Source: Cristatella mucedo (lineage: Eukaryota; Bryozoa; Phylactolaemata; Cristatellidae). From it: 64,000 bases of DNA. This document shows positions 4,867-46,588 of the stretch, one piece after another. The stretch is taken from contig WPIO01000024.1 of assembly GCA_009760855.2 (NCBI GenBank), forward strand, positions 4,674,501-4,738,500, given 5' to 3'. Below the pieces are notes generated by a model. That model had not been told where the DNA came from. It made no database searches and saw only the letters and a list, made by a program, of their open reading frames with translations. Position 1 is the stretch's first letter. Each line of letters starts with the position of its first letter. Made by a program: the position numbers and the translations under genes.

Positions 4867-5329
4867 TTAGACATGCAGGAGTAAGATTGAAGAAGATACT
4901 TGGGGCTGCCCGTAATTTAGATTGATAATTTGCAAGCTGCTGTGAATATTGGGCTGACTTAAGTTAGCTAGTAATGCAGTAAACACAAAGGCAAGTTCAA
5001 CTGCACCACGATTACTCAGCAGAGCCGATGCTTTAACAAAATTTCTCACAATTTGAAGCAATGTCTCAATACCGGCATGTTTTTTAGTGCTTGAACTTAA
5101 ATGTAATGCTCTGTTCAATCCATCGCTTGACTGTCGTGAACGTTGAGAACCTTCTCGGGGCACTGGCAAAGGATTTTTTGTTACCATTGACGTAGATGTC
5201 ATCAACTTCGCATGGCATTCGAGGAATAGAAATCCGTCATACCCAGTGAACGTGAAAGCCGGATATTTGAACTGGTATTTATGATGACCTGAAGAATCAA
5301 TTATCTTTACCCAGTCCACTGCTGGGAGG
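4867..5329 (-). CDS. Gene 1 exon: end of ZP-C and C-terminal tail
   Basis: The acceptor (TTTGTAG) lies just above 5329, and the first base completes a split Gly codon, phase 2. The exon opens with LPAVDW, then the ZP-C hallmark [18 protein letters not shown], in which a conserved Phe-rich strand precedes a cysteine. Further cysteines normally expected after this point are not seen. A basic stretch, SQRSRQSS, could be a proprotein-convertase site. Later there is a hydrophobic patch ([16 protein letters not shown]) and a stop at 4867-4869. The tail is about 90 residues, cysteine-free and unlike known ZP tails. A further small intron inside the tail (GT at the ATG-GTAACA site) cannot be excluded. 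Confidence 0.75.
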
Positions 5330-8300
5330 CTACAAAGATTGCCAAATAACAGTTTTTAAGCTAGACATACGAGGCCGTAGTTGATTGTATTCGGTAAGCC
5401 GGTAAAACAACGAGCTTTTTGTGCAACTTAATAATCCGTATAATGAATGCATCTTGTTTAATGGCTGCAACATTTTCCTAATCTAATAACATTTTTAGAA
5501 CATTTCGCAGTACTACTGAGTGAAATGTGAGCATTTGTTAAGTTATTTGCTTCAAGTTACCCTCAATCTTAGTGTCTGCTCTATATTTTCTCTGTAAATT
5601 CTAAGCTCTTACATGTCTTTGAAGAGATTGAATTATCTGGAAGTGCTAGGAAAATAAATATGGTTGTAATCAATGTTTCATCCTGAAAAAAATCAGCATC
5701 TATATTGACCAGCATGATGCAAAATTGCCTGCGTAATCTGGATCGGAGTTCAGTATACCGCTTTTGCTTCTATCAAATGGGTAAAATTACGCAGGAAATA
5801 TGTTAAAAACTAACTGAAACTGATTTTCTTAGGTTATTTCTAAGCTTTTGTCTATGGTTGTGGATTTTACTACAAGCTCATCACAAGAAAAACTCAAGAG
5901 ACCTCGCTTGTCTTCTTAGGTCCCTACTAGCAAAAAAATTGTTGCTATTGAATATAGGATAGTTTTAAAGTACTATACAATAAATGGTTTTTATGTTATA
6001 TCTAATTTCACGTGTATCTACTAGAGCAATGTCGAACATTCTGATTCTTTTTATCAAAGCTATTGCAACAGAAACGTGCTCGGAAATAACTATAGGAGTA
6101 ACAGATCGGCTGTATTAGTAGCATTTCCCAAACCTTAGTATACCTCTAATTATGCTAATAATTTATTAGAGTATAACAATTAACTAATTAAATATCTAAT
6201 AACTTGACCGAGCTTAAAGCCTCGGATTGAATTCATCTGGTCTTTTGAACACTTCAAGCTGATACTAAGTCAAAAATCATTTTAAATGTTGCGATCGTAT
6301 ATTCTGTTTTCGAAATATTTCTGATGCTAACATGTCAATTTCTTCCTTGGTGGTCAGCCTATTCTCCGAGATTTAAGGTAATCCTAAAGAGCACAGCCAT
6401 CAATCTGCATGATCGTAGTGAGCCAACACGTGCCGCAAACCAAGTTTTCTCTGGTGGCTTTCAAGATCATTACGATGCGATTAGAATTTCATCTCAATAT
6501 CTTTTTCATCATAGGCACAAGTAAGAAATAGAAAAATTAATACTAAAAATATAAATTCTTAATTTCGATGAAATTACGGTTACGAAATGAATGTCATGCT
6601 CACAACGCTTTTCACAGTGGCTCTTCAAAGTAAATGAAGATCGTCGCTTACCAGCTAAGTGAACTAAATGTAAAAACCCAGGAAAATGCTTGCATTATCT
6701 CTTATATTCACACTTTTAAGTCTTCAGAAGAACTATTAAGTCAAGAACGTGTATTCTGAGAGAAAGTTCTTCCTTGTGAGTGTAAGCACTTACATAGATT
6801 AATTAAATTTATAGGCTACGTGAATTAAGGAAAATATGGCAACATGTTTAGCCAGATTTACTTAGTAATTGCGGACGCAATTTTGCATGGCATATCAGTT
6901 ACATTAGAAAATAGATACCTCCAAAAAAATTAAATATATCATGACTGAAGTGGTTTCTACCGATTGGAAGTCTAAGTAAATCACAAGCTGGTCAAAACGC
7001 ATATACTGTCGTACTGCAGTGCTAAAGAACCACATTCAACAAGATATACCTAAGCAAAATTACGTGAAAGAAATGATGACTTCCACATATCTATCTGAAC
7101 AAATATGATGGCTCACCCGTTTAAAATAACTTGATCGTTTAGTTTATATGTTCACTTTCAGGGAATCTCCATTTTGAGGCTGGTATGAATAAAGCTGCTA
7201 GTGGGCATTTCCAGCCATATCATTTACCATAATTCTCACAGCTAAAAATTCTCATTTGGAATATTCGAAATTGCATAACCACCACGACTCGATGCATAGG
7301 CAAATCGGTATCACTTTTACTTATTACCTAGCTTCGATTCCAGTGAGAACTCTCTCCTGGCTAACTGGGAGACACTAATATGGTATTCTCACTAAGGAAA
7401 AAATCGTAACTTCTCATTTACAACGATATCGCATCGACTTAAGCAATTTATGACTACACATGCTATTTCAGTGAGATGTACGTTTACTCGTCCTTGCAGA
7501 CTGCAAAAAAAAGTTGACCAAATATACCAGGGGTGTACACCACGTGGCCCGCGTGCCTCAATCCGGCCCGCCGAGGTCTTCTATGCGGCCCGCAACGTTA
7601 TCCCAAAAATATTTGTCACTCCATGTTTTTCGTTAATTTTTATTTATTACTAACGGCGATATAAGGTGCTGTGATGTATTTCACGCATGCTTGAAGCGTG
7701 AAGGTGTCCGAATAGCTATTTTGGGATGAAGGTAAAAAAATCGATTTATTTTGCTAGCCTTTAGTGAACATTTTGGCGTGAAAGGGCAATATATTTGTGC
7801 TACAGTGTCGCCATTACGATCAAATTTATAAAGCTTCCGCAAGCGGAATTAACTGTTTCACACTGTGGATAGAAAAAAGAGCCGTTTCTCAGCTGCTGCT
7901 GCACGAACTGGAATCAGTCAGGTAGTTTTTTCACAAAACGCGTATTGCTCAGCTTACTTACTAATAATAAGGTATTGCTGTGATAAAATATAAATTAATC
8001 AATTCGTAACTGATCTGTTTTTATTTCACAGACAAAAATTGTGGCGAATGTGAATACTAGCAAAAAACGAAAACTTGACTCAGAAGGAAGACATCTTGGA
8101 CTGTAGACTATTTTGTAATGGAACGCTTCGGTAGGATAATGTGCCTAATGTGTCAAGAAACAATTGCCGTTTCAAAGGAGTACAATGTTAAGCAACATTT
8201 TCAACAAAGCATGGCGACAGGTACAACAGCCTGACTGGTAAACTTCGAATTGATCGCATGAACTCGTTAAAACAGGGCATCATCGGACAGCATTTATTGT

Positions 8301-11300
8301 TTACAGCAGTCAGCAACAAGTCTGAGGCTTCAACCAAAGTAAGTTTTTTAATAGCTGAAGCTGTAGCTAACCGGGGGAAATCATTTTCCGATGGTGAATT
8401 TGTTAAGGAATGCCTCAGGCTGTTCACTGGTGTGGTCTGTCCAGAAAACGGTTCTCAAACAGAAACTTTCTCATCAAACGGTTGCGAGAACAGTTGACGA
8501 ACTCGCATCCAACATAGAAGAAAGTCTCACTAAAAGAATTGCTGAATGCGAATTTTATTCTCTTGCGCTCGACGAAAGCACGGACAATAGCTATACGGCT
8601 CAACTGTCGGTGTTTGTACGAGGAGTAACAGGAAAGTTTGTCCTTATCGAAGAACTGTTGGATATATGTTCAATGAAAGGCACTACAACGGGGAGGGATA
8701 TTTTGGATCAGGTCAAGAGGGTCCTCACAAAATGTAATCTTCCGGAAACTAAATTGATTGGTTTAACCACAGACGGAGCCCCTTCAATTACAGGTAGACA
8801 CAATGGATTTGTATCTTTAATGGTAAAATTAGTACCTCACAAAATTTTCAGTCATCACTGCATCATCCACCAAGAACAGCTATGTGAAAACGCCTTGAGC
8901 GTGCAACATGTAATGGACAATGTAGTTTCAACAGTCAATGTGATAAAGTCTAGTGCGCTTAACCACAGACAATTTTAGGCTTTCCTTGAAGAGTTGGGAT
9001 CAGATCATTGTGATGTTATTTATTTCTGCCAAGTCTGTTGGCTAAGTAGGGCAAACACGTTAGCCAGGTTTTGGTCACTTCGGGACGAAATAAAAACATT
9101 TATGACAGAAAATGGGAAAAGATGTTGGTTTCCTCGATGACCAGCAGTGGTTGAATGACTTGGCTTTTTTGGTGGACATGACCAAACATCTTGCAGATCT
9201 TAATGTCAAACTCCAAGGTAAGGATTGAATGGTCCATAAAATGTTTGAGTGTGTTGTCGCGTTTGTGCAAAAGCTGAAACTTTTCCGGAAACACTTAGAT
9301 CAGAAGAAACTGTTGCATTTCACAACACTAGCACCAAGATCGCCTGAAACGCTGGCTCATATGAAGTACTCCAATCTTGTTAGCAAACTGGTTGATGAAT
9401 TCGATGAGAGGTTTCAGGATTTCCAGCAACATGCGGATGACATGACCATGACTAGTAATCCATTTAATATCGATGCACCTGATGAATTTCAACTCGAACT
9501 AATCGACATTCATAATGACAGCAATTTAAAAACTGCTTATGATCAGCACGACCTTGTTACCTTTTACAAGCAGTATGTTTCATCAGAGTCTTTTCCTAAC
9601 CTAGCCAAACATGCTCGCAGGTATATTGCACTTTTTGGCAGCACATATCGCTGTGAACAGCTTTTTTCCAGACTGAAAAATGTAAAAACAAGGACTTAAT
9701 CCGTTCTCACAGATGAACACGTATCAGGAATCCTTAGAATTGCCACATCCACTGTTGTAGCAGATGTCGACTTTTTATGCAAACAGAAGGAATGCCAAAT
9801 ATCTCATTGATGCCTGCAGTGCAGAAGACATTTAATACCTGTGGCCTTTAATTAATCCGAAGACATTAATATTATGTGAGTCCTTGCCATGTAATTTTGT
9901 AAGTTTTATAAGTTTTCTGTCTTCATGTTATTAAAATAAAAATCCAAAAGTAAAAGATTGACCATAATGTCTATCAAAATATTTTCCAAGACACATGATT
10001 AAATTTTTATTATCTATTACTTTTAATTATAATTATGCCAAAAAATACCATTGTATTGCGGTTTATTTATTAAGTATAATAGTAATAGTCATATTAAATT
10101 ACGATCTTATTTTCTGATGCAGTCAACTACGCCAATTTACATGTGGCCCCCGGACCTTTTAAATTTTTTTAATGTGGCCCCCCAACGCAAAATGGTTGGA
10201 CACCCCTATAATATTCCAAACAAAAAACATAGAATACGAGCCAGCTCTCATTCAGGCCTTCAAACAGCTCACCCGTTTGTTATAAGGGTAACCGATTTCA
10301 TTTCTATCCAATCTTGAGGTCGGACTGAGCAGTTCTTCACGACAAACGTCAGATCGACATCCTGAGTACTTAGTGAAATTTCTGCATACAAAACGGCGCT
10401 CTCCATAGTTGTATCATCCCTAATTTTGGCGGTACAATTGACATTGTAGCATAGTTGCATGCTGAAACCAAATAATTCATCCATGTGAAGCGAGAAGGAT
10501 ACTGTTAGGAAGTGCATACCACTTGACGTAGTATAAAATCAGGCAAGATAGAAAAAAATAAGCATACAACTCCAGCGTGCATCACCAGGCAATGCTGTCA
10601 TACAGCATTCAGTTTCGGGATGAGTGCAGACAACTTGTCTGATTGGGCTTATATGGGCTTAAACAAATTTGCATATTGACCGAATTTGGATCAACAGATT
10701 TACTGCTTAACATTATAACTATTTGTTTTTATAACAGAGCTGTTCTTACAATCTTGCAATTTGAAATCTTGCAATTGCTTTCATATAAGCAGTGCTATGA
10801 ATTCAATTTTAATTTAAAAAATCATTGCATAGATTTTGCTTACACAAAATTTAAACGTCTATATACCACATTTATTCATCGTATGAATGTGCTTGCAAAA
10901 ATATAAATGAAAATAAGTGCAGCTTGAAAATCTTACTAGAGTGATCCAAGCTTGTTAACACCGATAATATATCTTAAGACGAAAATAAGTATTACAGCTA
11001 CTGGGTATGCTCATCCTTTTTTAATTCCGGAATATATATCTTTATTTTTTTTCCTGCCTGGCTTACACATTCTGCTAGGCTAGAGAACCTTTTTTTTATC
11101 TGCACTCGCATACTGCTAAGCACTACGTGCTTCAAATCGTCAGCTCACAAGTGCCGACAGCTTGTCTATTAAAGCAGGGTCTCCAAAGCATTTCAGAGTA
11201 GTTCGAGACAAACTAAACGAATTGAGAGAGAAGAGCAGGTGGTACGATGCATAGCATGATTGGGTAATGTTTCTCTAGGTAGGCTGAAAGGAAGAGAAAA

Positions 11301-14300
11301 AAAGGGACTACAAGTGAATGACAATACCTTAAAGTCCAAGCGAAGCTAGGTTTGGAGCTACTTCAAAGCAGATAGAAGTCGCAGAACAAGGCATCGGTGA
11401 TGCTCACAACAGATATATTTAACTGTAAAACTGCGAGCCCAGTTAAAGCACCTGATTGCAGAGACTGGTGGAACTTCAAGCAGTGAGCTGCGTAAGTCGA
11501 TAAGGGAGGTCAGAAACGAATGAAACAAATAGGATGTGGTAGGTTGGTCTTTGCAGAATCATATTTTAGCAACTTTACGTGTCTGATAGTAGACAACCTT
11601 GCCTGTGGAGCTGATGTGATTGACTTGTGAGAGGTCATTTTTGGAACAGAAAACCTTTCGAGCAGTGTCTAGGAAAAGAATGCTGGCACAGCCGATTTGG
11701 AGCATAATATTTCCGATTTTTGAATCATCACTTTGTTTACCCACATCTAGTAACTTGGTCCGTTTCGTCATTCAGTTAAAAAGGTTTTCGGTTATAAACG
11801 TGCAGATGTACGGAATTCATGCAGGAGGAGAAATGTGGGATTAGAGCAAGTGGCAGAGAGCACCTTGCTTAATCATGTTAAAATTCCGAGCACCGGCTTG
11901 CCTTAAGTTTGTTGAGCCAATACTTGTAGGTGCCGTAGTTAATGTGACGGGAACCGTCTTCACCAAAGCGGAGGATGAACTTCTCCGCCCAATGATGCAA
12001 GTAAATGGAATGTTGACGGTGGCAGCAAACCGTATTATGGAGTTCTTGATATGGCTTCCTTGGCTGACCACCACGTTTCTATACTTTATGCCATCTCTCT
12101 CTTCCTGAAAAATAAATATAGCTGGACCCTCAGCTATGAATGTATGATATAACCCCCCAATGACTAATCAATGAACCAGAAAGTACGGTCGTAGTAAATC
12201 ACTTCTCCCTCCACAGCAGTTATACTCCCGCAAAAAAACCACAAGTTATAGTCATTAATGCTATTAGACTTTGATCGCATAAAAATAATCACTAGCAAAG
12301 ATGCTTTGAAAACATCTATTTATGAATGTCCTAAGCATCATCTTAAGCACTGCTTCAGGCTAATACAACTAGATTATACTCATTAGTAGTCTTTTAAAGC
12401 AGTCAAAAACTTTAGTAATGAGCACAGCTGCAAACAAAAGCTCTCAGTCGCAGGAGCACTAAATGCTAAAATCCAAAATCCTCGACTGCATGAATTCATC
12501 AAGCCTTATTTACTGTGTAGGAGCTAAGAGATTCTATCAAAATACATTCCAAAGAATGGAATAATAAAACAGTAAAGCTATTAATCCGCTATAGAGAATT
12601 CATCCTAGTATCTACACATGCCAGTGGATAATTATTTTTACTGCATTTTTAGCTCACATACTCACGATATAAGTTTTGAATGCATCTAACACATCCACTA
12701 AATAACCTAATTTAATCATGCAGCTTTTCCTATCTACAGATGGAAAACTTAAGTTTGGGAGATAACAAACTACTGCAATATAACTCAATGGCTGTGCTAA
12801 ATATTTCCATTAAATCTGTTGGCCAACTCCCTTTGTGCAGAGCCCATCTCGCAGAGCCCATTCATGTTCGGTTTAGTGTCAGGGTGGGCAGCCAGATATA
12901 TGCACTGGAACTGTTGGTGATTAGAGATTTTATTGCGCATGCTAGAGAAGAGAGTAGCTGAGCAGGCTATAGGCACCAGAGACTTTAAGTGCCGGCGATA
13001 TGATGACAATGGAAAGCTAAAAAAAACAGTATGCTTAATAATTTAAAAAACTCATTCAATTGCTGTAGCCACAGCTAAGTTACAGTTGGTGGTAAAACTA
13101 GAAATATGAGCAGACAGATTGAACTAATTCCAAAATATCCTTCATAGGATGTATTTGCTGTTATACTTTTTGTTTATCTTATAATGGTGATATTCTTTAG
13201 CTTTCTCCTTAAGTACGGTGAGAACTTGTTAGTGAGGATTCGATATTTTAAACTGATCATGTTTGTCTGCTTTAGCTGGAAAAAAATCTCAGACAAGGTT
13301 TTCCGGTGTATTTGAATAAAAGCACAAACTGAGGAAAATTAGATCGTACACTTATGTTGTTTACTCAAAATGGATGCGGCTCTTCGCTCATCAACAGCAA
13401 TGCGTTCTTAATGTAGAATCCTTAGACGGTCAAAACTGCATCCTTCTTGGCATACTATAAAATCGCTTATTCGTGGCATTCTGTCGTAATATCTTTCAAT
13501 ATCTTTGATATTCATCAAATTCAAACGGGTCGTAATATCTTTGAAAGACTAGGCTCGTCCGCTTCAGGTGACTCCGAAAAGTGGGAATCGAGTGAATCAG
13601 TTGGTAGCTGGCCTTGGCTTGACTTTACCCGACTGCGAAGCAGAATGAAGAGACAAGGCAAAGTGTTGACATTACTCAGTGTCTCATCTGTCTCGGAGAC
13701 TAAGCACAAGCTAAGCACATTTACTATAAGAGGATTAGCTCCAAGTCAAAAAGACCAATGGCATCGAGTTTGCTTGCGCCAACAGTGAATTCATCTACAC
13801 GAAATGCTGAAAGATGATTATTGGGATATTTTCATGCAGCCAGATAAAAAATATCCATTGAATCACCACTGAATCAAAAATTGAAAGCATTACGGACCGT
13901 TTCTATTGCCGATTTGAAGAGGCCAACGCAAAATGCTTGGTCGGTCTGTTCGTTCCCTCATTTATCGAGGAACAGCCACGTCGGTCACAGTTAGCAATCA
14001 TATAGCTTCAATGAAGCAAACGTCTTTGACCTCGACTAGCAGGCAATGGAATCCAATTTTGGGTAAGTCCAGTGATTCCCAAACGGTAACATTCACCGAG
14101 CCTTCTACACTCAGTCTATCGTGGACTACCTGTTTCTATTCCTGTGATAGCTTATGTGTGGTGAGCTAAATTTCTCACATCAGGTGTAGTTAAAGGCTTT
14201 GGAAGGCCAAGTGCATTTTTTGCGGTAGCCCAGCCAAAACAAAGTTACAATTATCTATTAGAAGCAGAACTACAGAGCTCGTTTAAAGATACATTCCAAT

Positions 14301-17300
14301 CTTACAGAGGGCTGCCTGCAAATGGCTAGCTTACAATTGTGAATGGCTAGCCGTGAAGCAGTATTATTAATGAAGCTTTCATAATTGAGGCTGCTATCAA
14401 AGGCGATATCTAAATTCCGAACTAAGATTAGGTCGCACACCTGCATCACCTTTTAGATGTGCACAGCCTTCTAGCCCAGCCAGAAACCTTTGATTTTCCG
14501 TGAGTAGCAGTACTGTTTTATTGTCGTTACGTTTAGAAAAGTTTGCCGACATACATGGCCAAATATCTGCATGGCAATTAATCAATGTCACAGTCACTGT
14601 AGCACACTCCGGAGGTTTAAATGACACATAAATCTGAGTTTCTTCAGGATAAAAGCTATACACTGTTCCATTGACCCTAATCACATTTGCCAAATGTAAA
14701 ATATAAAGTTGCAATTCCAAAGGACCAATGATAGACATTTTAAGGACTCCACAGGTGATTGCTCTGGTGCATGATACCAAACTGCGTTCTATATGTATTG
14801 AATATGAACGGAAAGTTCATGTTTCAAGTTCATTTTCAGTTCAATAAACCACAAGGTAATTTTGCTGCGAAAAATCTCTTCAGAAGACAAAACGTACATG
14901 ACTTCTATTATAAATTTCCGCCTTTTAAAAACTGAACACTTTTAAAACCACACTTACTGATTGTTCAGTCATGCAGCTGTCGTACCTCGTGGTGAATACT
15001 AAATGAGTTGAGTTTACTTTTGGTTTGCATTCATTACCCAAAAGTGTTACCTCTTCTGGCGATAGCATTGGATAAGCATCTTTCACGAAAGAGACAGTCA
15101 TTCTGTCAGATTCACATTGGATATTCAATCCAGTTGCTGCAAGTCAGAGCAGTTACAAACATGTTAGCTTTTATACCACGCCACATGTTCACAAAGGTAC
15201 AAACTAAATTGACAAGTTGCAAGGTACTAACCTGTGCATTGTTCCGTCAACACGTCCCATTTCATGTAAGTGGGGCAAGTGCACCTGCTTGAACCAATAG
15301 TATTCACGCAACCGTGTGAGCACCCTCCATTTTCTTCGAGGCACTCATCGACATCTAGTAAATTAAATTAGTGATAAAACTTTAAAACTATTTTCTAACC
15401 ATTGAATACCACATAAAACATCTCATACAAAATCTGCGTACACACAGCATTTACATACCGATGCAAGCTGTCAGGTTTCCAGGAGCAGGAGAATATCCAT
15501 GTCGGCAGCCACAAATTTCCGACGAATTAACTGGGTTGCTGTAGCAGATCTGGCTGCAACCGCCATTTTGTTCTCGGCATCTTGATTCTTGCAATAAAAA
15601 GTATCATGGTATTCACCAAGAATTTATCTTGCTTCGCAAAGCTCAGTGAGATACTTAGTGAAATCGTAAATATTTATGGGTAACGCCTATGTAAGTATTT
15701 TATAAGCTAATGTTTTAATAAAGCAATCGAGTAGCACTTTAGGAGAATCTATCCAATATTATCACTTGATAACCTACTACTCTGCATGAAGAATCATAGC
15801 ATTTGTATACTGCTGCGTCCTCAAAGTTTTAAGCTACATTTCTTGTGCATTCGAATGTCTTGCGCATGGTATATTAATGGTGTCTGCATCAGTAAGAAAA
15901 CCTGAGAAAATTCTCCGTGCCAGTGGACAGGCGACAGATCCAGCGTTTAAGTACTTTAAAAAGCAAACTAGTGGTAGGCAAATTCTACACTATTGAGAAA
16001 TAGGTTGTACTGAAAGTCCAGGTTGCCAGTTCATTCACATACTAGATATTATTATAGGCTACAGGTTTAAACATGAATGAAAGCTGTCATATGAACCGGC
16101 GTGATAGCCATCCAGGTCTTGAACACGTTGGGCCGAGCTTGTACTTCGAGGAAGGTCGTAAGCCAGCAATAAAGTAGACGGATTTTGTACTTGATACTCC
16201 GGAGAAAGGGATAGATATAGAGAGCTAGTGAAAGAAAAAGAGAAAGCGACCAATAGAGAAATACAGAGACGGAAAGGGAGAGAGAGAGAGATAGCGAGGG
16301 AAAAGAGAAATAAGCTACGTTCTTTAGTGGTTGATTTGTATTGACATTTAAAAAATTGCATCGACATGACAGTCAGTATAAGTGGGCAAATGATAGCCTC
16401 TTCCTTCTGGACATGGAGGCACAGTGAAGAGCGTTATAGCTTACAATCGCGATCGGGTTTGGTTTGTAGCGTGGAAGCTACATTGAACATTACTATTATG
16501 AAGCACATCACAAACACATTCAACAGTATCCCTAAAAAGCAAGTGCAGGCATTGAGGTAACTGACGACTAACTTATAAACAAAGCTAACTTGAATGCTGA
16601 TGACATCCCGAGCACTAGGTTTAGTATAGAGTGATCCTATTACACATGTTGCCCAATTTGCTACAAAATCTTTACATTAAGTAATTAGCAAGTTTATAAT
16701 GCAAAGACTGCATCACCATGCAAAACAGCATCAAGCAAACTGAGCTGGCAGTGTGGAGCTCATGCACGATACCAGGATGGAACACCCCGAGGTTACTGAT
16801 CTCTCAATCTAAAAGAAGGTATGTGTGCCATGCAAATATGAAGCTGAGTCGGGGCTATTACCCTTCTACTTAAAAAGAGTATCCTGATGACTTTTTTCGG
16901 TGCAAAGAAGGAATCAGCTGATGCTGTTATCACCTGCTAAGTCTGAGAAGACACGTTTACGACCTTTCCACTTCTCAGCAGCCTGCACTAATTTTGCACC
17001 AGTTCTTGACCTGCTGCTATCCGAACTAGTTCCCAATATGGCGAGACATCTCACCACTGCTGTTCTTACTTCATTATTTTATCTGAGAATACAATCAGCC
17101 TATATTTAGCTCCTACCATCAGAAAGGCTGGAACTTCATCTCGACTTACGTAATGACATCCTTTGACTTCTCACTACACCTCTTTTCACTGCCATGCACT
17201 GGCTAGCCGTCGATCAGCTCCTGTATCACTCACAGCAGACGTTCTGCCGCTTGGCTGTGCAACTTAAAAAGCAACCAGCTTATCAAAATTGTGGTCCTGT

Positions 17301-18587
17301 CTGTTATTTTGAGTTCCCTTTGTTCTCTTGCACGGCCATACTTTTCGAATAACAGGCCGGTACATCACTAAGCGATGCAAAAAATGCACACCCAGCTGAG
17401 CTGTGCCTTTAAACGATTGGTAGTTTAATGCGAAACAATCTTTGATCTCCCAGTGCAGATCGGTTGCGTTGGACCTCCTGATAATAGGGAGGATTTGAGC
17501 AATATATATCGTAAATAAGGCTCTTAAAACGCAAATCATCTAGCGTCGTCGTGAACAACCCAGAAAAAATCAGTATTTCCTAAAATGTAGGTTCTAAATG
17601 CACTTGAACAATACTTGTCTGATATGAAGACATCTCATGATTTTGTGAAATTTAAAATGAGTCCTCAGTGCACCGGCTCTCGCAGCATCACGGTGTCCTA
17701 GTGCAATGTCCTCAGTGTGCCTATGGTTCTGCCAATGTATATAATTGCTGATATATGATTCTGCAAATATATAACAGTATTATCTGCTACAAACTGTCTT
17801 TTAATTGTGTTAGAGGCTCAGCCAATGACCTGAAAAAGAATAATGGACAGCACGGTGGACCACAAGGATGATTCGGATTGTGGGACTTTTAAAGGTTGCC
17901 ATAGACGTTTAACTGGAAACAATGGCATTTGTGACTGACAAGCCTTTCTGCCATTTGTTCCAATTGAATCTCTAGACACTCAAAACATTTCTCAAATTTG
18001 AGCTCCTGTACTGTACTCAAAACCTCGCCGGAACTTGATTTGGGTATACTTTCCTCTTATCAGCTGCTAAACTTTGTTATCAGTATGCAATTTAGTGCCG
18101 CTGCGTTATCTGGTCTATCTTTTCTCTGTATGTGACTACTTCAACCCCTTATTTCATCAAAGGAGGTGACGGAAGAATAAAATAACGGGCTGAGTAATGC
18201 CAGCAAACGAAAAGTTACATAGACAAAATTCAACTAGTTAAGCTACTAAATATTATTATTGAGATTATTTCAATACTTGCTTAGCCCTGCATTCACACAG
18301 GTTTTTAAGTGCTCGCCTTAAAGAATGACGTCAAGATGGATGCATTTGTTGACCGAGGTCATGGGCCCGAGCCCTAGGGAATGCGGTGCACCCGAATAGA
18401 AAGACTATGTTCTCTTACAGCACTGTGCAAATGAATTATACATGTATATATATATATATATTTTTTTTATATATATATTTATATTATATAAATATATTTT
18501 AATATATATATATGTGTGTGTGTAAATATATTTGTATATATTGATATATGTGTGCGTGCGTGTGTGTGTGTGAGCGCGAGCGCGCGC

Positions 18588-18667
<80 letters not shown>

Positions 18668-21600
18668 TACGCCACTCACCATTACATCTTAGCCACAAGT
18701 CATAACTTCCCTGCAGTAGGAGATTTATTTGAGACAGGCTGAAGCATTGAGCAATGGTAGACTCATTTCCCAGGCAATTCACAGCTGCCAGATTCATGCG
18801 GTTGGAGTATTCGTGCGTATAATAATAGTTATTCGTCCCATAGCCATACAGGTATCGTCCGTATCCCAGGCTCCTACACAAGACATTACCAGTCTGACTT
18901 GAAATACTTCCGTAGTGGTTAGGTGACAATGCTCTCACCCATGACCTGAAATAAAACTTTTGAAGTTTGCAATCTTGTAAAAAAATCGAGATTCAACCTA
19001 CTTTAATCAACAAATATTCAAACAAACAAGAATACATGCTTATTCTTTCCTATTGAAATTGTATTAGTATTACTGGGTTGTTCGTTTGCTTGAATCCCGA
19101 AATTCACGGCAGCCAACTGCCACATTAGTAGATGCTGTATCTCCCTGCTATATTGATTGAGTTTATGGTCAGGATAGTTTGCCATTGTAATGCAACACCA
19201 TAAAATTCCATATTACTGAAATTAACGTTAAATTAGATAGTAATTTGAAAAGATTTACGAAGCACATTATAAATAGCCGAAGTTTCGGCGTACAAACTCT
19301 ATTCATATTAACCTAATATTGCTGTTTCGGTTTTGCACAACTAAACAGGACCTGCAAGAGGTTTAACGAGCCGAGCAGATATAAAAAATATTTATTTTTA
19401 TTTTTATGGCTTTTACTACAGTGCTATGAAATTTTAAAATTATCACTTTTCAGACTGGTTTGCATTTGGCTGTCTGGTCAGCACAAACGTGCCCAGAATT
19501 GCGGTAGAAAGGGTCCCACAACCTGTATCTTTTTAAACTAAGCCTAAGGTTTATGGTACTAGTATGACGAAAAAGATGGTAAATTGCAAGCAACACCGAA
19601 TTTTTAAACCGTTTAACGTTCCAGCTTTAAACTATGCTAGCGATCACATACTGTTTTTCGACAATGCTTAGTGGCTGGAAATAGATCTAGTTTCCTAGTG
19701 GCTCTAAGCTCACCCATTTTTTATTTTTAGTATCAGGTTGAAAGCTGAGCTTAATAGAAGAATGTGAACTATGCGAGTTACGAAACGCAAATGTCGTACT
19801 TTTGGAACCGCTAGTCTTTAATAATAATAATAATAATGTACTTGATAAAGCGCCCTCAGAGAACGTAATCTCTTTATAGGTGCTTTACATTTGCTGCAAA
19901 GGGAAATGCAATTGAATGGTAACTAAAATCATGCTTTAAAAACAAACAAAATGAATAACATAGTTAGGGGTGACATGCACAGGGTCAGCATGCAAATGTG
20001 GTTAGTGGCAGCATGCACAGTGTCAGCATGCATAAGCACGTGAAGGACGAATCACAGGGACCCACTAAATGCTGTCCTTAATAGGTGTGTTTTTAAGTTC
20101 CTTTTAAATGTGGTCAGGTCAGGGAATGTTCTGACGCAGGTTGGGAGTGAGTTCCAGGTTTTGGGAGCATACGAACTAAATGCACGGTCTCCATAGGATT
20201 TAAGGTTTGTACGAGGTATTTGAAGACTGTTCGATTTTGAAAAGCGGGTGGTACGATGCTTGGCCTGATGGGGGAGTATGTCGGAGAGATAGGCTGGAGC
20301 CATAGAATGAAGGGACCTAAAAGTGAGCGACAAAACCTTGAAGTCAATCCGTTGCTTGACTGGTAGCCAGCGCAGGTCGGCGAGAAGTGGAGTAATGTGG
20401 CAACTGCGACGCTCACGACAGACAAGCCTGGCTGCAGAGTTTTGCACCAGCTGCAATCGCCTGATCGCACATGCTGGTAGGCCAGTAAGCAGTGAGTTGC
20501 AGATGTCGAGACTGGATGTCACGAATGCATGGACCAACTTAGACGTGGGATCCTTATTTAAGCGAGCCCGAATTTAAAAATGAGAAGCAGTCATTTCATT
20601 CAGATTTATCATGGAGGAGACGGCTATACGGAAATTAGTGGTTGTACTCACAATCTTGCAATGAACGAAAAAACCAATAAGCTTATGCTGAATAGGTGGC
20701 CTAGCCTCTGCCAATCTGCTTGTGCTACATAAGATTGTTTTGAGTTGGGCTCCGAATTCACAGGATACACCAGAGCTCACTCAAGCACTTCTGGAGGAGC
20801 TGAGTTAAGAATTTTGAGCATTTTTTGCCTTGCACTTGTGCTTTTGAATTTTTGAGCACTGTTTACCAAGCCAGTGCTCAATGGGCATTCAGTTGTACAA
20901 TCCAGGAAACTAATAGGCGATATGAGCAGTAAGCCAGAACTCAGTAAATGTTAAGCGACAGTTCAGAATACGAATTGGTTATGCCAAAGAAAGACCTCGG
21001 AAAATTAGCATGAACTCTTAAATACTAACTCAGAATAAACGCCTCTCTATTACCTTCCTGCCGTTCTACTTCTACGATCACAGATTTTTTGCAGCCGTGT
21101 ATAATTAACATAAGAAATATGACCTTGAAAATAGTACCTATACACTGAAACTTCAAGCCTAGCAAGCAAGTTCCAGTTTGACCTTTGAGCTGATAACACT
21201 AAAGAGTCAGCACGTCCTATGATGTATACAGATCTCAGGAACGCATAAGTGGGGAAAGCCTAACTGCTTATTTTGCTTGATCTTTCGGCAGCACATGATT
21301 TCATTAATCGTCACTTACTTCTTGACTGCCTCCCGTCTTACCCCAGCATTATCCACCCTAAAGTATCATGGTTTAGGTCTTATTCCGGTGGTAGACTCCA
21401 GAATATTGATTAGAACAGAAATCATCATCCGAGGAAACACCGAAGTATGATGCACCTCAGGCAGGCTCTGTGCTTGGTATTCTTCTAGTGGCAACGAATA
21501 CTCGGCGATTCGATTGCCAGGCATAATCTAGGTTTTCATTTCTTTGCCGGAGACTCTCACTTGCACTTATACTGTATTCACCCTCACCCTTTCTGTACGA

Positions 21601-24600
21601 CAAACCATCTGAAATTCTTTCTGCACATATTGCTACATCAACGTATGGATGACAGCGACACTTTTCAAATTAGATGAAGATAAAATCCAAGTTCCTACTT
21701 ATGGGCTAATCAAGTGGCATGCCGAAATTGGAAAATGTAACCCAAAAAATACGCTACGACAGCGTATCACCTATAGTATATGCTCAAAATCTAGGTTTCC
21801 GGTTTCAAATTGACGCTTTCCTGGGTGACCACGTCAGTTCCATAGTAGAGTTCGCCTAATTTCAGCTAAATAACATCTCTAATAAATGAGCTAGCATAGT
21901 TCAAGATACTACGTGGAAATTGGTCTATTTACTTGCAACATTCCGCTTCGACTTCGGCAACTCACTAATTCTTGGTCTATTGAACTGTGCAATACAGAAA
22001 TTAAATACTAGCTTATTCAACAGCCTCTTTTGTATAGCGACAGAAGAGCCTTTACGGTTACCACCACCGTTTTTAAAGACAATTATGGATCACCAACGAC
22101 AGGATTCCAACCCCCGACCTCAACCAACGTCGGGAAAAGAAACCGCCTTACCTAGATCAAGTACTTACAGTTGCTTTAAATTCTGCAGCTAGTCTTGTCA
22201 GTCGTGATTGTCCCTGTCGCCTCATCGAATAACATCTTGCCGACCTGCACTGGCTTATAACCCAGCACCACATCGACTTCCAGGATCTGCCACTCACTTT
22301 AAAGTCCGTTCGTTTTCTGGCTCATGCCTAGCTACATGAAACACTCTCAATCAGGGTAAGAATCGTGCCGCCCGATTTTGGTTCAATTCATTTAGCTACA
22401 CCTCATACGTTCCTTTAAGTGTTTTGAAAATCGTGCCTTTAATTAACATGCTCTCAAAGACTGTAAACTCCTCCCTATTGATGTCATGACATTTCTCCAC
22501 TTGATGACATTTAAAAAGGATCTCGAAGCCCACCTTTTGACAGCATTTGGTTGGTACTTGTAAACTTTTCTTAATTGGCTCATTAATGCCGACACTGTGA
22601 ATAATGTTTGTGTGTACATCTCTGTCTGTAACTTTACAAATACCATGTGGCTTGTAGGCAAGAACGTTCTGTATAGCATGCTCAAAGCCTAAGCAGCTAT
22701 CGGTATGCATTTTGTATCCAACCGATTCCATCTCACAAAGCATAGAGAAAGTGAGTAGCGTGGCTGAGTCAGGAGAGCAGTTGTGGTAGTGAATAGTATT
22801 AAAGAAGCAGTTCATGACGGATGGAAATTGAGGTCATATTCGGAAGCGGGAAAGTATTTGTCCGTGCCTATGAATTGTGGAAGTGATTTCCACAGTCTAG
22901 TACCTGAAGAGAAAAAGCTTCTGTCACCAACGGACTTTACCCGGATGAATGGAGCAGCTGGTTTATTGTCCAAGCAGAACCTAAGGGCATGAGGAAGCTG
23001 AAACTGGAGCAAGTAGCTCAGGTTAGTATGAAGAAGCCAAGCCATGATGCCACTATTATTGTTACCGTGCATATCACCCTAACCATATTAGGCTTATTAA
23101 AATCGTGCGTTTCACGACAAATCTTTTGATCATGCTTACCGTACTCATTTAAAGAGCCTAAAAAGTGGTTAAGCTGTCTGAGAGGGCTATGCTAAGCAAA
23201 TGTGATGTATTTCTTATACTTATGAAATTAACCACTTCCATACTCACTGCAACAAATTTAGTAGCCATATAATTTATTATGATATTACATTGTATTAAAA
23301 TATTAGTAACTCTATTATCACAGCATTACTGAGCTAGTGAACATTTTAAAGTCTGAGCCAGGCTCTCGGAAAGATGCTTTGATCAACTTTGAGAGCAACA
23401 TGAGAATAAATAGCATCTCTCGTCAAACACAAGGCATTCCTAGCAATTTTACGTGGAAAAGTGATCTGCCTCACTGAAATAGCGATCAGATATCACACCA
23501 AAGTTGAAGTCTGAGCTTAGTTAACGTTTCAATTGGTATTCTGAATAACCCGGAACACTCTTTGGACCAACTTCGAACTCCGAGGCAGTGAAGAAGCAAT
23601 ATTTTATCGGAAATACATTTTATTAACATTGTATCAATTTTAAATGAACAAATAAGTTTAGAATGTCTACTAAATTACTTCCAATAAAATTTTCGGCAAT
23701 CGTTATGACATCCTTTTATAAACTCTCTAACCGTGATGCAATGTTCTGGTAGGCTTCTGAAACAAAAACAACCGCCAGCTTTCCTGAATAGGAAGGCTCG
23801 TGGTTCATTATTGCCTAGCTAAAATGCCTTAATTGATACAAAATAAAAAAAACTGATGATTTATTACCCGCCTCTTTGAAAACAAAAACTTTTGACAATT
23901 AAAGTTTCTGTGTGAGGAAAATACTTAATTACAAGAGGTAATCTGATGGTTCGGGTTTTCTATTTAGGTAGCGTAAGGTAAACTAGAACGTTTTCTACTA
24001 AAATGCAGTCCAGCAGTGAATTTAATAGAATAACGTCATGGCTTTATTTTTGTTCCGCATTTATGGCAGAAAGAAAGAGAGACATTGGAGAGAGAGAGAG
24101 AGAGAGAGAGACAGAAAGAGAGAGATTTCTGCTTAGCTGTGCATTTGGACTTTACTGCACCACATCTTGGCTGTACCACATGTAAGCACAGTCAAGATCA
24201 TGCAGGATCGCATTATCTTTAAGGTTCCCAATAAAAATTGCTTTTCTTTAAACAATGTTCTAGCCCTGGCCAACGCATTACCTCAATTTAGTATCCTGAC
24301 GACCTGATTAGCCAGATTGTCACTAGTATCACTCAAGCAGCACTAAGAAATTACATTTCGTAGTAGAGCTATCACATTATTATAAGAGCAAAGTGCGATC
24401 ATGAATAAAAAATATCAACATCTGTAAAACAGAAAGAGCAAAACTACATGTGAATCTAACTTTTTTGTGGTATCAATCTTGGTACATCAACAGTCAAAAA
24501 TTAGTTGTTTTCGTTTGATCCTCACATGAGATGCCTTAAGATCTTTCCGGAACAGTTATGAGCATTCATGCCAAAAATAGTGTCCAGATCAACCTTAAGA

Positions 24601-25325
24601 AGTCAGAGTTGCTTGTTTTTCTAGAGAAATAATTGCTTAAAAACAATAAAGTAAATTTGATTCAATCTGTGTGTCGGCAGAATTTTTCTCAAAGATCCGA
24701 TTCCAGGGCTAAAGACCGACTCCTTGTAGAATAATTTACAGCGAAATTGAGGTTGATTCATCTTCTGCAATCACTTTAAATTAAGGCCCAGAGAACCTTA
24801 ATTTTAGCTCTGGGCTATATTTACATCGCTGGTCAAATGTCCTAATTACATTGCGAGGGAACGATTGACCTTGCGGCAGCAGCTCAATTAAAACGTATCA
24901 TGTTTAATTTAATTATTTTTCAAAGCAAAATCTGTTAAAACTTTACGAAGTCTTTAGTCAACCATAGTAAAAAATCACGACTTTTCTCATGTTTACTCTA
25001 TTTTTAAATACTTTGAGTGAATATTTGATGTAAATCTGGTGAATAGTTTACACATCATAATACGTTTAGTAGAAGAGAAATCTTATCTAATTGCATAATC
25101 CAAGTATTTATAGCCGAGAATCGTTAGATTCCAAATTATTAAGCTATCGTTGAACACGCGTATTACAAGAGATCGAGAGATCAATAGATCGTATTACAAG
25201 AGATCAGTTTCAATTTAAGGATCTTACCCGTTATTTCTTTGTAGCTCCAGTATTCCATATATCTCTCTGCCATCATAACGGCTGTCCACTAATCTTGTGG
25301 CATTGATGTCTCCAACCTGAGACTT
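4867..25325 (-). CDS. Gene 1: SRCR-EGF-EGF-ZP domain protein (spliced, 5' incomplete)
   Basis: Eight exons were read by eye: 25228-25325, 18680-18945, 15459-15587, 15232-15354, 14958-15136, 11924-12104, 10273-10501 and 4867-5329. Their lengths sum to 1668 bases, and every junction keeps phase (0 in, then 2, 1, 1, 1, 0, 1, 2, stop). The product is one SRCR domain, two six-cysteine EGF-like domains with no linker, and a whole ZP module (ZP-N then ZP-C). Known proteins with ZP modules are extracellular, polymerise through ZP-N and ZP-C, and form coats or matrices; SRCR and EGF parts usually bind ligands. The role here is inferred. No signal peptide exon was identified, so at least one 5' exon is missing. 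Introns hold LINE-A, LINE-B, SINE and hAT insertions. No lesion was seen in any exon, which argues for a live gene. Confidence 0.85.
5330..7527. other. Gene 1 intron, no recognisable feature
   Basis: AT-rich intron sequence between the last exon and the hAT element. No domain, RNA gene or repeat family recognised. Confidence 0.5.
7528..10208 (+). mobile_element. hAT DNA transposon, inactive
   Basis: The left end starts CAGGGGTGTACACC; the right end finishes GGTTGGACACCCCT, an inverted repeat of the left end with the last base changed. Both ends carry GTGGCCC/GCGGCCCGC blocks, as in many Charlie-like hATs. The flanks aaatatac (7520-7527) and taatattc (10209-10216) agree at 6 of 8 positions, which fits the 8-base target duplication of hAT elements. 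It lies in a gene 1 intron, opposite to the gene's direction. Confidence 0.9.
8041..9810 (+). pseudogene. hAT transposase, broken (GTF2IRD2/ZBED-like)
   Basis: The order matches hAT transposases related to the one fused in GTF2IRD2. A basic KKRK patch near 8067 precedes a zinc-finger segment ([17 protein letters not shown], about 8145-8205). The RNase H-like core follows with LALDESTDN (about 8565) and TDGAPSITG (about 8770), and the C-terminal dimerisation region has [17 protein letters not shown] (about 9620-9670). Lesions: frameshifts near 8090, 8210, 8450-8500 and 9115, and in-frame stops at 8976-8978, 9226-9228 and 9697-9699. A possible 5' intron runs from CAG|GTAGTT at about 7920 to TTTCACAG at about 8032. 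It cannot make a transposase. Confidence 0.88.
10273..10501 (-). CDS. Gene 1 exon: ZP-C subdomain, first part
   Basis: The acceptor is CTTCCTAACAG (exon from 10501, phase 1) and the donor is AACGG|GTGAGC (phase 2). The peptide includes [12 protein letters not shown], a Cys-rich bit LCYNVNC, then the typical ZP-C strand order [19 protein letters not shown], where family members have an aromatic or acidic strand followed by a conserved Cys. Length is 229 bases. The matching exon of gene 2 is 61820-62008. Confidence 0.85.
11120..11850 (-). mobile_element. LINE-A fragment in gene 1 intron
   Basis: Degenerate match on the minus strand to the C-terminal part of the LINE-A polyprotein. Cognates of the [12 protein letters not shown] region (near 11380-11410) and of the region just after the RT catalytic box (11559-11771, where [12 protein letters not shown] aligns with the LEIGSASI segment of the copy at 36.8 kb) can be seen. 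No 3' UTR is present. Confidence 0.65.
11924..12104 (-). CDS. Gene 1 exon: ZP-N second part and linker
   Basis: The acceptor has a strong pyrimidine tract (TATTTTTCAG) before 12104, in phase 0. The peptide opens [13 protein letters not shown] and includes [10 protein letters not shown], which supplies the fourth conserved ZP-N cysteine after the I-F-C pattern; a Ser/Thr-rich linker follows. The donor chosen is ACAA|GTATTG, phase 1, because it matches the next exon; a GC-AG donor nearby (AAG|GCAAGC) would break the frame. Length is 181 bases. Confidence 0.8.
12105..14199. other. Gene 1 intron, no confident feature
   Basis: Several short open frames exist on both strands (for example 13447-13788 plus) but none shows a known domain. 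12800-12960 has repeated GCAGAGCCCAT-like words without a wider repeat match. Confidence 0.45.
14200..14780 (-). mobile_element. LINE-B fragment (RT core) in gene 1 intron
   Basis: The minus-strand reading (14397-14780) follows the LINE-B copy at about 56.3-56.6 kb: [14 protein letters not shown] stands where the intact copy has FYADDTQLYLSFKP. Later NDNKTVLLL and AGLEG correspond to NDDKTKLLL and AGLKG. The catalytic YADD is lost. It is truncated at both sides. Confidence 0.8.
14958..15136 (-). CDS. Gene 1 exon: ZP-N first part
   Basis: The acceptor is CTGACTTGCAG before 15136 (phase 1) and the donor ATCA|GTAAGT (phase 0). The peptide contains [23 protein letters not shown] and RYDSCMTEQ, which give the first three conserved ZP-N cysteines with the usual spacing and the LG.eC.P signature. 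Together with the cysteine of the next exon the four-cysteine ZP-N fold is complete. Length is 179 bases. Confidence 0.9.
15232..15354 (-). CDS. Gene 1 exon: EGF-like domain 2 (calcium-binding type)
   Basis: A single symmetric phase 1-1 exon of 123 bases, acceptor TTTACTAG, donor ACAG|GTTAGT. It encodes a full six-cysteine EGF-like domain starting DVDEC, with NGGCSHGC and [10 protein letters not shown]. The D-V-D-E start and the NT.GS motif are those of calcium-binding EGF domains, although the aromatic residue after GS is replaced by S. Confidence 0.92.
15459..15587 (-). CDS. Gene 1 exon: EGF-like domain 1
   Basis: A symmetric phase 1-1 exon of 129 bases, acceptor TATTGCAAG, donor ATCG|GTATGT. 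Six cysteines in the order [16 protein letters not shown] and TAC form one EGF-like domain. It lacks the DxDE calcium motif. It joins EGF 2 directly, without linker residues. Confidence 0.9.
15588..18344. other. Gene 1 intron, mostly featureless
   Basis: A GA-rich patch lies at about 16200-16310. Weak open frames at 16900-17109 (plus) and 17264-17539 (minus) show no domain. The rest holds nothing I can support. Confidence 0.5.
18345..18440 (+). mobile_element. SINE-1 fragment
   Basis: The segment matches the 3' two thirds of SINE-1: a B-box-like region (GGTCATGGGCCCGAGCCC), the GAATAGAAAGACTATGTTCTCTTACAG tail block in degenerate form, and AATGAATTAT. The A-box end is missing. Confidence 0.65.
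18441..18664. repeat. (AT)n / (GT)n compound microsatellite
   Basis: AT-rich alternation runs to about 18545, then GT-rich sequence with a short (GC)n interruption, then an almost pure (GT)n from about 18592 to 18664. On the gene 1 transcript strand this is a (CA)n tract that begins about 15 bases after the exon 18680-18945 donor. Confidence 0.97.
18680..18945 (-). CDS. Gene 1 exon: main part of SRCR domain
   Basis: The acceptor is TTTTATTTCAG before 18945 (phase 2) and the donor TAATG|GTGAGT (phase 1). Length is 266 bases. The SRCR signature is clear: [11 protein letters not shown], then [17 protein letters not shown], then DLWLRCN at the end. The usual W-G-x-V-C start is changed to YGSIS, and the penultimate cysteine is also missing, leaving four cysteines. 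Open reading beyond the donor into the CA repeat is an artefact. Confidence 0.9.
19815..20577 (-). mobile_element. LINE-A copy, 5'-truncated, well preserved
   Basis: On the minus strand an open frame at 20052-20537 (161 codons) encodes the LINE-A C-terminal region: [67 protein letters not shown]. The 3' UTR and the family end with (ATT)n follow at about 19815-20050. The open frame makes it one of the younger LINE-A copies. The break at 20577 is the 5' truncation. Confidence 0.9.
21235..22599 (+). mobile_element. LINE-A copy, degenerate, left part (host of nested insertions)
   Basis: It opens at RT motif sequence ([12 protein letters not shown] near 21270, compare LDLSAAFDT), goes through degenerate RT to the C-terminal region, and is broken by a SINE-2 at 22012-22165. 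A LINE-B copy in the opposite direction interrupts it near 22600. The 3' UTR resumes at 23059. Confidence 0.75.
22012..22165 (-). mobile_element. SINE-2 copy nested in LINE-A
   Basis: The minus-strand SINE-2: AACAGCCTCTTTTGTATAGC at the 3' side, the AGCCTTTACGG block, a degraded B box (GGATTCCAACCCCCGACCT) and a CTTACCTAG end. LINE-A coding sequence continues on both sides (before 22012 and after 22165). Confidence 0.8.
22600..23058 (-). mobile_element. LINE-B 3' end nested in LINE-A
   Basis: On the minus strand the open frame at 22812-23072 carries [21 protein letters not shown] and RLWKSLPQF, matching DNKLAVPF, LKTVGDRSFSSAG and RLWNSLPQF of the intact LINE-B. The LINE-B 3' end block (compare ACGGAGATACATT) is at 22600-22640. 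LINE-A 3' UTR lies on both sides. Confidence 0.8.
23059..23260 (+). mobile_element. LINE-A 3' UTR, right part
   Basis: It continues the LINE-A copy from 21235: GTGCATATCACCCTAACCAT and, later, a degraded family 3' end (AAGAGCCTAAAAAGTGGTTAAG..GAGAGGGC) near 23150-23200. Confidence 0.65.
23261..25227. other. Gene 1 intron, no recognisable feature
   Basis: AT-rich intron sequence. A short (GA)n tract lies at about 24088-24125. No domain or repeat family recognised. Confidence 0.5.
25228..25325 (-). CDS. Gene 1 exon: N-terminal strand of SRCR domain
   Basis: The acceptor is CGCTTTTGCAG before 25325 (phase 0) and the donor AACGG|GTAAGA (phase 2). Its 98 bases encode [20 protein letters not shown] followed by QRNNG, the usual opening of an SRCR domain (RLv.g....GrvEv...G). 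It joins 18680-18945 in phase across a 6.3-kb intron. A further 5' exon with a signal peptide is expected, since this exon starts without a Met. Confidence 0.8.
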
Positions 25326-29584: not shown

Positions 29585-29696
29585 GTAATATATAATTCAT
29601 TTACATAGCGCCCCAAGAGAACTTAATCTCTATTCAGATGCTCAGCAGGACCTTAGTCGGGGCGAGCACCTTAACCGCTGGACCAAACCAGCTCGG
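29585..29696 (-). mobile_element. SINE-1 copy with internal deletion
   Basis: On the minus strand: AGCTGGTTTGGTCCAGCGGTTAAGGTGCTCGCCCCGAC (5' tRNA-like part with A box, here given in two pieces, GGTCCAGCGGTTAAGG and GTGCTCGCCCCGAC). The tail block AGAGATTAAGTTCTCTTGGG then follows. The B-box region is deleted. Confidence 0.8.
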
Positions 29697-29769
29697 CTTT
29701 TTTCCATTGCAAGCGGCAGCGAAAGCCATTAACGGGGTAGCCAGCGAAAAAGTCCTGGCATATACAAAG

Positions 29770-33690: not shown

Positions 33691-34208
33691 CAGAGCCATG
33701 CAGAATTTTCAAGGTACAACATGCGTGCTGTCTGTTTTGCACCACGCAGGTAACACGGCACAAGGTGAGCGGCTGCGAATAATGATGACCCTGTCATGCA
33801 GCCGTCTTACCTGAGCTTGGCAGGTTTGGCAAAAAAGAGCAAGCAGGCAGGCGAGCTTGGCCGAGCTTGTTTTACGATGCATGGCAAACGAGTGGCTGGC
33901 ACCAACTACTGCACCACTCGTCGTCTGAGCCTTGGTGGCTTAAATTACTGGCACCTGAGACATTCACAGACAGGGAGAAAGGGCGAGCATTCTCGCCTCC
34001 TGACATGGAGCTCTCTAACGACTGTTTGTGTTCGTTGCAGAATTCTTCCGAAAACCGAAGTTCTTGCGAACATCGTATACGAAAGCGAAATGGCTAAGAC
34101 CATTTAAAGTTATTCTGATTGTTGTTTGACCATAGCGCGTTAGAAATTACATGCCTGTGGATATCTAAACGCTTATCGCTTCGGGCTGCTGGGTCTCCCA
34201 CGCAGGTG

Positions 34209-38321: not shown

Positions 38322-38322
38322 A

Positions 38323-46416: not shown

Positions 46417-46588
46417 TCATTTCTTGCGAGCCCCTTTACCACAGGCAGTATCGCACGAGCTGTCTTCAGTTGTGCAGAATTGGACGTCACAGAAAACACG
46501 TGTACCCTGCTCGTCGTGTAGGTAAGATGGTATTCTCATCATGAATGTGTCTTGCATTAGTATCTGGACGTCTTTGTCCACAGGACAG
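46417..46588 (-). CDS. Gene 2 exon: end of ZP-C, terminal
   Basis: The acceptor is TTGTTTTTAAG (phase 2). The peptide starts CPVDKDVQIL, the usual CPvD motif of ZP-C, continues with DTFMMRIPSYL, then RVFCDVQFC, SSCDTAC and ends GKGARKK before TGA. The cysteine pattern C-x4-C, C-x3-C is typical of the ZP-C end. The basic GARKK end could be a remnant of a cleavage site. Confidence 0.85.

Follow-up and report, generated by a model that had tools for sequence, protein, structure and literature searches.

The 64,000 nucleotides from the bryozoan Cristatella mucedo considered here (the window: contig WPIO01000024.1 of assembly GCA_009760855.2, positions 4,674,501 to 4,738,500) carry parts of two genes of a tandem array, the 5' exons of gene A and the last two exons of gene B. 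A third gene, C, lies beyond the window, and all three copies are on the minus strand. With C166 as the label for the contig, the window is C166:4674501-4738500; exon coordinates without this prefix are positions in the window. The reading that best explains the locus, to which we would give a probability of about 0.6, is that the window holds the first nine exons of A and that the gene encodes, in 15 exons, a secreted protein with the architecture signal peptide, SRCR, EGF, EGF, ZP module (ZP1), fibrinogen C, second ZP module (ZP2), and short basic tail, which would serve in an extracellular coat or filament.

The joined exons of gene A (Table 1) run for 2940 nt from ATG to stop, giving 979 residues, with 14 of 14 junctions in phase. 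Part of this gene was already visible in a preliminary description of the window, which reported an SRCR-EGF-EGF-ZP protein in eight exons totaling 1668 nt. We take this to be the chain of minus-strand segments 25325-25228, 18945-18680, 15587-15459, 15354-15232, 15136-14958, 12104-11924, 10501-10273, and 5329-4867 (555 residues and a stop, ending at 4867), since its total of 1668 nt matches exactly, the description itself listing no inner borders. The segments, the splice sites, the seven phase-compatible joins, and the total length all stood up, and all eight segments recur in the same order in two tandem paralogs. What gave way was the start, one junction, and probably the end. The gene is real but was wrongly bounded, and its full architecture goes beyond what had been described.

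At the start, a signal exon was missed. It lies upstream of the chain, so the 555-residue product is without its signal peptide. The exon was chosen for its donor and phase among the 23 hydrophobic ATG frames of a scan. Its phase 0 matches the phase-0 acceptor at 25325, and the corresponding exon of paralog B has 14 of 24 residues as in A and the same GTAAGA donor. In copy C, a candidate signal exon of 20 residues with a GTAAGT donor was found by pattern.

Table 1. Features of the three gene copies on C166 (a slash in a sequence marks a splice boundary).
Feature	Position	Strand	Remarks
Signal exon, gene A	33811..33882	-	ATG and signal peptide MHRKTSSAKLACLLALFCQTCQAQ; phase-0 donor CAG/GTAAGA
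Exon 1	25228..25325	-	first third of SRCR; phase 0 to 2; 21/32 residues as in B
Exon 2	18680..18945	-	remainder of SRCR; phase 2 to 1; 59/83 residues as in B
Exon 3	15459..15587	-	EGF 1; phase 1 to 1; 39/42 residues as in B
Exon 4	15232..15354	-	EGF 2, DVDEC calcium-binding type; phase 1 to 1; 36/40 residues as in B
Exon 5	14958..15136	-	ZP1 ZP-N, first part; phase 1 to 0; 45/59 residues as in B
Exon 6	11902..12104	-	ZP1 ZP-N end and linker; phase 0 to 2; donor TTAAG/GCAAGC
Exon 7	10273..10461	-	ZP1 ZP-C, first part; phase 2 to 2; acceptor TTTCAG/C
Exon 8	5073..5329	-	ZP1 ZP-C end (Cys7, no Cys6 or Cys8) and linker; phase 2 to 1; weak donor CCG/GTATTG
Open stretch after exon 8 donor	4867..5072	-	probably intron; possibly alternative short 3' end
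Fibrinogen exon 1, A	C166:4674161-4673664	-	phase-1 acceptor; about 5.4 kb past exon 8, just outside window
Fibrinogen exon 2, A	C166:4671137-4670967	-	
Four ZP2 exons, A	C166:4667165-4666963, 4660869-4660679, 4658962-4658774, 4650336-4650165	-	stop after SSCDSACGKMARKR
Copy B	C166:4793042 (signal exon), 4763331 (exon 8 end), last exon in window	-	upstream of A
B ZP2 ZP-C, first part	61820..62008	-	phase 2 to 2; in window
B last exon, ZP2 ZP-C end	46417..46588	-	stop after SSCDTACGKGARKK; AATAAA about 90 nt past stop
Copy C	C166:4640510 to about 4579700	-	downstream of A

The domain scores rise when neighboring exons are joined, which indicates that the chain is more than chance. SRCR goes from 32.5 bits with exon 2 alone to 38.6 bits with the signal exon and exons 1 and 2, and it stands at 34.7 bits in the 979-residue product (Pfam cut-off 26.1; profile positions 8-99 of 100). 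The ZP-N of ZP1 goes from 29.8 bits with exon 5 to 46.3 bits with exons 5 and 6 (profile 1-98 of 101). Its ZP-C gives no match with exon 7 alone and 37.1 bits, above the cut-off, with exons 7 and 8 (the comparison is of exon 7 alone with the two joined). The EGF pair as a piece scores 45.6 bits with FXa_inhibition (cut-off 33.4) and 24.7 bits with EGF_CA, just below the cut-off of 27. The order SRCR, two EGF, and ZP given in the preliminary description is borne out, SRCR and EGF profiles being found in the joined product and ZP-N and ZP-C in pieces. Beyond the window, the two fibrinogen exons joined match PF00147 at 149 bits over a nearly complete profile (20-219 of 221), with fibrinogen-like protein 1 as the closest solved chain (E 8e-29), and the ZP-C of ZP2 exceeds the cut-off as a piece in both A (30.4 bits) and B (31.6 bits). 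The second fibrinogen exon has a cysteine-rich segment, CVCTCLTCG or CSCTCLTCG, after GGWWY.DC, which is kept in the three copies; the loop in the solved fibrinogen-like protein 1 differs.

In 200 kb of flanking sequence around the window, copy C assembles into 15 exons that join in the same phases as those of A at all 14 junctions, with no internal stop and about 1019 residues (its final serine and stop are seen in the sequence just past the last coordinate used in the assembly). For copy B, 14 of the 15 exons were identified, with phases the same as in A. In searches of the 572-Mb genome, only the best candidates were scored by the search tool, so that counts are of matches listed. The joined product gave 51 matches, 23 on C166 and 28 on other contigs; those 28 all fall between query residues 123 and 256, for the most part in the EGF pair. 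Among the listed matches, those to the SRCR and ZP1 parts are all on C166, except for one partial match on C77 (query 160-256). With the fibrinogen-ZP2 half as query, 47 matches were listed, of which 17 lie on C166 and the remaining 30 elsewhere. Since all of the 30 fall in the fibrinogen part (query 12-205), ZP2 is confined to this array among the matches listed. A search of the whole genome with the PF00100 profile was uninformative, with one match, on another contig. Matches to the SRCR exon number at least 82 genome-wide, many of them clustered on C266, C289, C47, C337, C299, and C442.

The junction between exons 6 and 7, placed at 11924/10501 in the earlier chain, is better placed with exon 6 ending at 11902 and exon 7 starting at 10461, because phase 2 is then shared by the three copies and by the equivalent intron of ZP2. 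Exon 6 ends in TTAAG/GCAAGC in A, TTGAG/GCAAGC in B, and TTTGC/GTGAGT in C, phase 2 in each case, and the acceptor of exon 7, TTTCAG/C, also phase 2, is identical in the three. The intron (11901-10462, minus strand) is accordingly of the GC-AG type in A and B, while in C the corresponding donor is an ordinary GT. Identity between A and B follows the same borders: on the exon 7 side, 153 of 189 positions agree in 10461-10273, as against 27 of 40 in 10501-10462 and 11 of 20 just before; on the donor side, 18 of 22 agree in 11923-11902, 9 of 12 in the next 12 bases, and 52 of 90 beyond. Donors for exon 6 at 11924, 11864, and 11964 were rejected for weak scores and phases at odds with the paralogs. 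The Pfam ZP-C score could not separate the variants of this junction (36.2-36.7 bits for all three), since the profile begins after it.

Substitutions between the copies fit working genes, with purifying selection acting on both sides of the window edge. Over the 14 exons shared by A and B, its nearest paralog, 683 of 896 aligned residues are identical, and the synonymous and nonsynonymous distances (Nei-Gojobori, computed by our own script, with bootstrap ranges in parentheses) are dS 0.495 and dN 0.140, for an omega of 0.283. Omega is 0.355 (0.28-0.46) for the first nine exons, 0.273 (0.16-0.49) for the fibrinogen exons, and 0.147 (0.07-0.24) for the three ZP2 exons, single exons ranging from 0.11 to 0.77. 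The values of dS are uneven, at 1.03 in ZP2 as against 0.18-0.24 for the EGF exons and 0.26 for those of fibrinogen. This pattern hints at local gene conversion.

The two ZP modules share intron phases (1,0,2,2) and differ in their cysteines. By our own numbering, aligned to the order described for ZP modules in PMC7456536, ZP1 keeps C1-C4, C5, and C7 in 3 of 3 copies and is without C6, C8, CysA, and CysB; it has an additional close cysteine pair (LCYNVNC and equivalents). The ZP-C of ZP2 keeps the six cysteines C5-C8, CysA, and CysB in 3 of 3 copies, and its ZP-N keeps C1 and C4 and is without C2 and C3 in both of the copies for which the first exon was identified. No convincing membrane-spanning exon was found after ZP2 in the tails compared (C with A and B, and A with B). 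Between A and B, this comparison produced 144 pairs, by look mostly repeats, and the most hydrophobic of those listed (1.69) is a transposon-like frame.

What weighs against a single long gene is felt first at the edge of the window. The frame of A stays open for 68 codons past the proposed exon 8 donor, up to the stop at 4867 that the preliminary description took for the C terminus, and the donor itself, GTATTG, is weak; none in the exon 8 stretch of A scored above 2 with the simple splice matrix used (two accepted donors of A, at exons 3 and 5, likewise fall short of 2). Perhaps, then, gene A makes a short SRCR-EGF-EGF-ZP protein through retention of the last intron or early polyadenylation, alone or beside the long form, in which case the product would be a coat protein of the ordinary EGF-ZP type, with the SRCR added at its N terminus. 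An A(A/T)TAAA motif at 4692 and a moderately hydrophobic stretch after the proposed donor (best 19-residue mean 1.41) would suit such an ending. However, the paralogs have phase-1 donors at the equivalent place (GCAG/GTAGGT in B and AAAC/GTAAGT in C, beside CCG/GTATTG in A), and the frame of B closes 4 residues past its donor. An open stretch as long as 4867..5072 is found at 1626 of 37886 random non-exon points (4.3%), and in A the exons for fibrinogen and ZP2 remain intact, with constraint relative to B. A short form is therefore unlikely; reading up to the stop at 4867 seems to run into an intron, and exon 8 is probably not terminal. Two other suggestions for this region were rejected. The paralogs disagree on a transmembrane C terminus in the open stretch after 5073, and a block conserved between A and B at C166:4678134, considered as the exon after exon 8, has stops in every frame. 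Or perhaps each repeat unit contains two genes, one for SRCR-EGF-EGF-ZP1 and then a separate one for fibrinogen-ZP2, each with its own start. The large introns and the weak donor of A leave space for a hidden first exon, and proteins resembling either half on its own are known. Yet the phase-1 donor of exon 8 is matched by a phase-1 fibrinogen acceptor in all three copies, with the same order and strand, and two genes seem rather improbable, although no search was aimed at another signal exon between the halves; we infer that both halves belong to one transcript. The compact layout of a single SRCR, two EGF, and one ZP was thus very likely cut by the window edge, the same strand continuing in phase to fibrinogen C and ZP2, and the case illustrates how a long gene, cut in this way, can pass for a plausible short one.

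Other adverse points concern the remaining parts of the proposed gene. The first exon of ZP2 was not recognized in the B sequence compared (C166:4743648, examined for this role, was not convincing). The score of FXa_inhibition is only 29 bits in the 979-residue product, below the cut-off of 33.4, and among the profiles listed for the whole products there is none for ZP (555 and 575 residues at E<=0.01; 979 residues at E<=0.1), so that a domain search of the joined product confirmed the SRCR and EGF types of the preliminary description but not its ZP. HMMER filters are the putative cause of that absence. The ZP-N of ZP2 aligns over profile positions 1-100 of 101 but at 15.5 bits (E 0.022), below the cut-off of 24.7, and the likeness of ZP1 to ZP2 is weak (21/100; BLASTP E 0.026). 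The comparison of tails was limited (5 kb for C) and left one weak hydrophobic A/B pair just past the stop, in another frame (E 0.018). Together with a donor-like TGTG/GTAAGA at the last cysteine of A, this pair makes a further 3' exon possible. Finally, gene model and function alike are predicted from genomic sequence.

For the 15-exon protein, the most likely role is that of a secreted subunit of a coat, mucus, or egg coat. The protein, in which no membrane anchor was found, would be released. Its ZP halves would assemble into or onto an extracellular filament, whether of an egg coat, mucus, or an apical coat, with SRCR, EGF, and fibrinogen as ligand-binding recognition arms. Of the coat, mucus, or innate-immune surface role suggested in the preliminary description, a function in an extracellular coat, in mucus, or in recognition remains the natural one to draw from these domains. 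In uromodulin, the ZP-N of one subunit binds the ZP-C of another, head to tail, after cleavage releases a C-terminal patch (PMC7737619). By analogy one might speculate that the ZP-N of ZP1 and the ZP-C of ZP2, with the fibrinogen domain between them, are the likeliest working pair in the protein of gene A, since their cysteines are complete, while the ZP-C of ZP1 and the ZP-N of ZP2 have been stripped. A bolder version, which we consider doubtful, has a split ZP protein in which the complete halves polymerize and the stripped halves clasp the fibrinogen domain, making a filament without anchor or proteolytic release in which SRCR and fibrinogen heads would stand at fixed spacing. Uromodulin also furnishes an objection: cut before its C-terminal hydrophobic patch, it is not secreted and polymerizes within the cell (PMC7737619), and a ZP2 ending at that place is therefore not an obvious subunit of an ordinary filament.

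Alternatively, the protein may be a receptor or co-receptor and not a coat subunit. Endoglin, which is also without Cys6-Cys8 and CysA-CysB, is a co-receptor (PMC7456536), and ZP1 might bind a growth factor as betaglycan and endoglin do, making the protein a soluble trap or scaffold. The loss of cysteines in ZP1 agrees with this, as does the sequence search against solved structures, where four of the five chains listed at E<=10 are betaglycan, the only solved ZP relatives found by sequence (the query carried the 11924/10501 join; the fifth chain, a ferredoxin at E 1.5, is a chance match). However, neither a membrane-spanning segment nor a cytoplasmic tail was found in the tails compared, and the likeness to betaglycan (best E 2e-9) may be no deeper than conservation of the fold. 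This role appears quite improbable. If the secreted coat protein is the correct reading, two complementary ZP modules without a tether would test the need for the cleavable, membrane-tethered tail of the uromodulin model (PMC7737619). It would also show a route by which recognition heads of the immune or gamete type can be placed in a coat filament.

The surroundings of the array genes include what are presumably mobile elements. In the intron between exons 5 and 6 of gene A, an open frame at 14397-14816 (minus) looks, judged by eye, like the degraded remains of a LINE reverse transcriptase, for which 54586-56931 (plus) offers a comparison. We take the regions at 54034-57357 (plus), 35512-37326 (plus), and 20052-20573 (minus) to be pieces of LINE reverse transcriptase with a CR1/L2 look; frames at 8367-9699 (plus) resemble a hAT-type transposase. 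One of the three LINE-like regions has an open frame of 781 residues. Long simple repeats of CA, TA, and GA, judged from the listed frames, occupy 18479-18690, 29596-30009, 38218-38797, and 40296-41062. Elsewhere on the same nuclear contig, at C166:4375626-4376390, there is COX1-like sequence containing TGA codons, which is probably mitochondrial DNA copied into the nucleus. A 301-base piece of mitochondrial COX1 has two AGR codons at sites where serine is expected and three ATA codons where methionine is, in keeping with the invertebrate code and contrary to the codes of ascidians, vertebrates, echinoderms, cnidarians, and sponges.

Each part of the proposed protein has known relatives. DMBT1/hensin, as here, combines SRCR and ZP in one secreted protein, with many SRCR and CUB domains, one ZP, and no known EGF or fibrinogen C. 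Uromodulin is not known to have an SRCR or fibrinogen domain, and betaglycan and endoglin are single-ZP membrane receptors in which SRCR, EGF, and fibrinogen domains are likewise not known. Betaglycan supplies the closest solved ZP sequences, and endoglin the same loss of Cys6-Cys8 and CysA-CysB (PMC7456536). Uromodulin shares EGF and ZP with gene A but has one ZP, a glycosylphosphatidylinositol anchor, and a cleavable C-terminal patch where A has a basic tail (PMC7737619). The wider SRCR family numbers 1747 genes in 29 animals, with ZP among the partner modules and a class combining SRCR with EGF, ZP, and further modules already known (PMC10855680). As for the compact layout, thought less familiar in the preliminary description, one or two EGF with a single ZP is common in several animals, nemerteans included (PMC11673550); it is the full layout that is unfamiliar. 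In the literature covered, which did not extend to domain-architecture databases, no protein with SRCR, EGF, fibrinogen, and ZP together was recognized, and for that reason this negative is weak evidence of novelty.

Among the EGF-ZP proteins of lophotrochozoans, NeZPL1/4/5/6 of nemerteans and EGFZP of molluscs are like A in having one or two EGF domains and a ZP module, and in NeZPL also a signal peptide (PMC11673550, PMC13361971). NeZPL6 is found at the egg surface and EGFZP in the shell matrix (PMC11673550, PMC13361971). NeZPL, however, has a furin site and a transmembrane region after its single ZP (PMC11673550), while A has an SRCR ahead, fibrinogen C and ZP2 behind, and no anchor that was found. 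Limpet adhesive mucus contains SRCR and EGF proteins, with no fibrinogen mentioned in the part of that report available (PMC7333891). Fibrinogen and ZP do meet in the ascidian v-Themis, a fibrinogen-type protein on a ZP egg coat, but there as separate molecules (PMC8849226), whereas here they would be joined in one polypeptide. Two ZP modules in one protein have been described in three genes of three species, among pufferfish and alligator, where they are regarded as recent duplications in vertebrate ZP genes (PMC6262864); the two modules of gene A, in contrast, are highly diverged and flank a fibrinogen domain.

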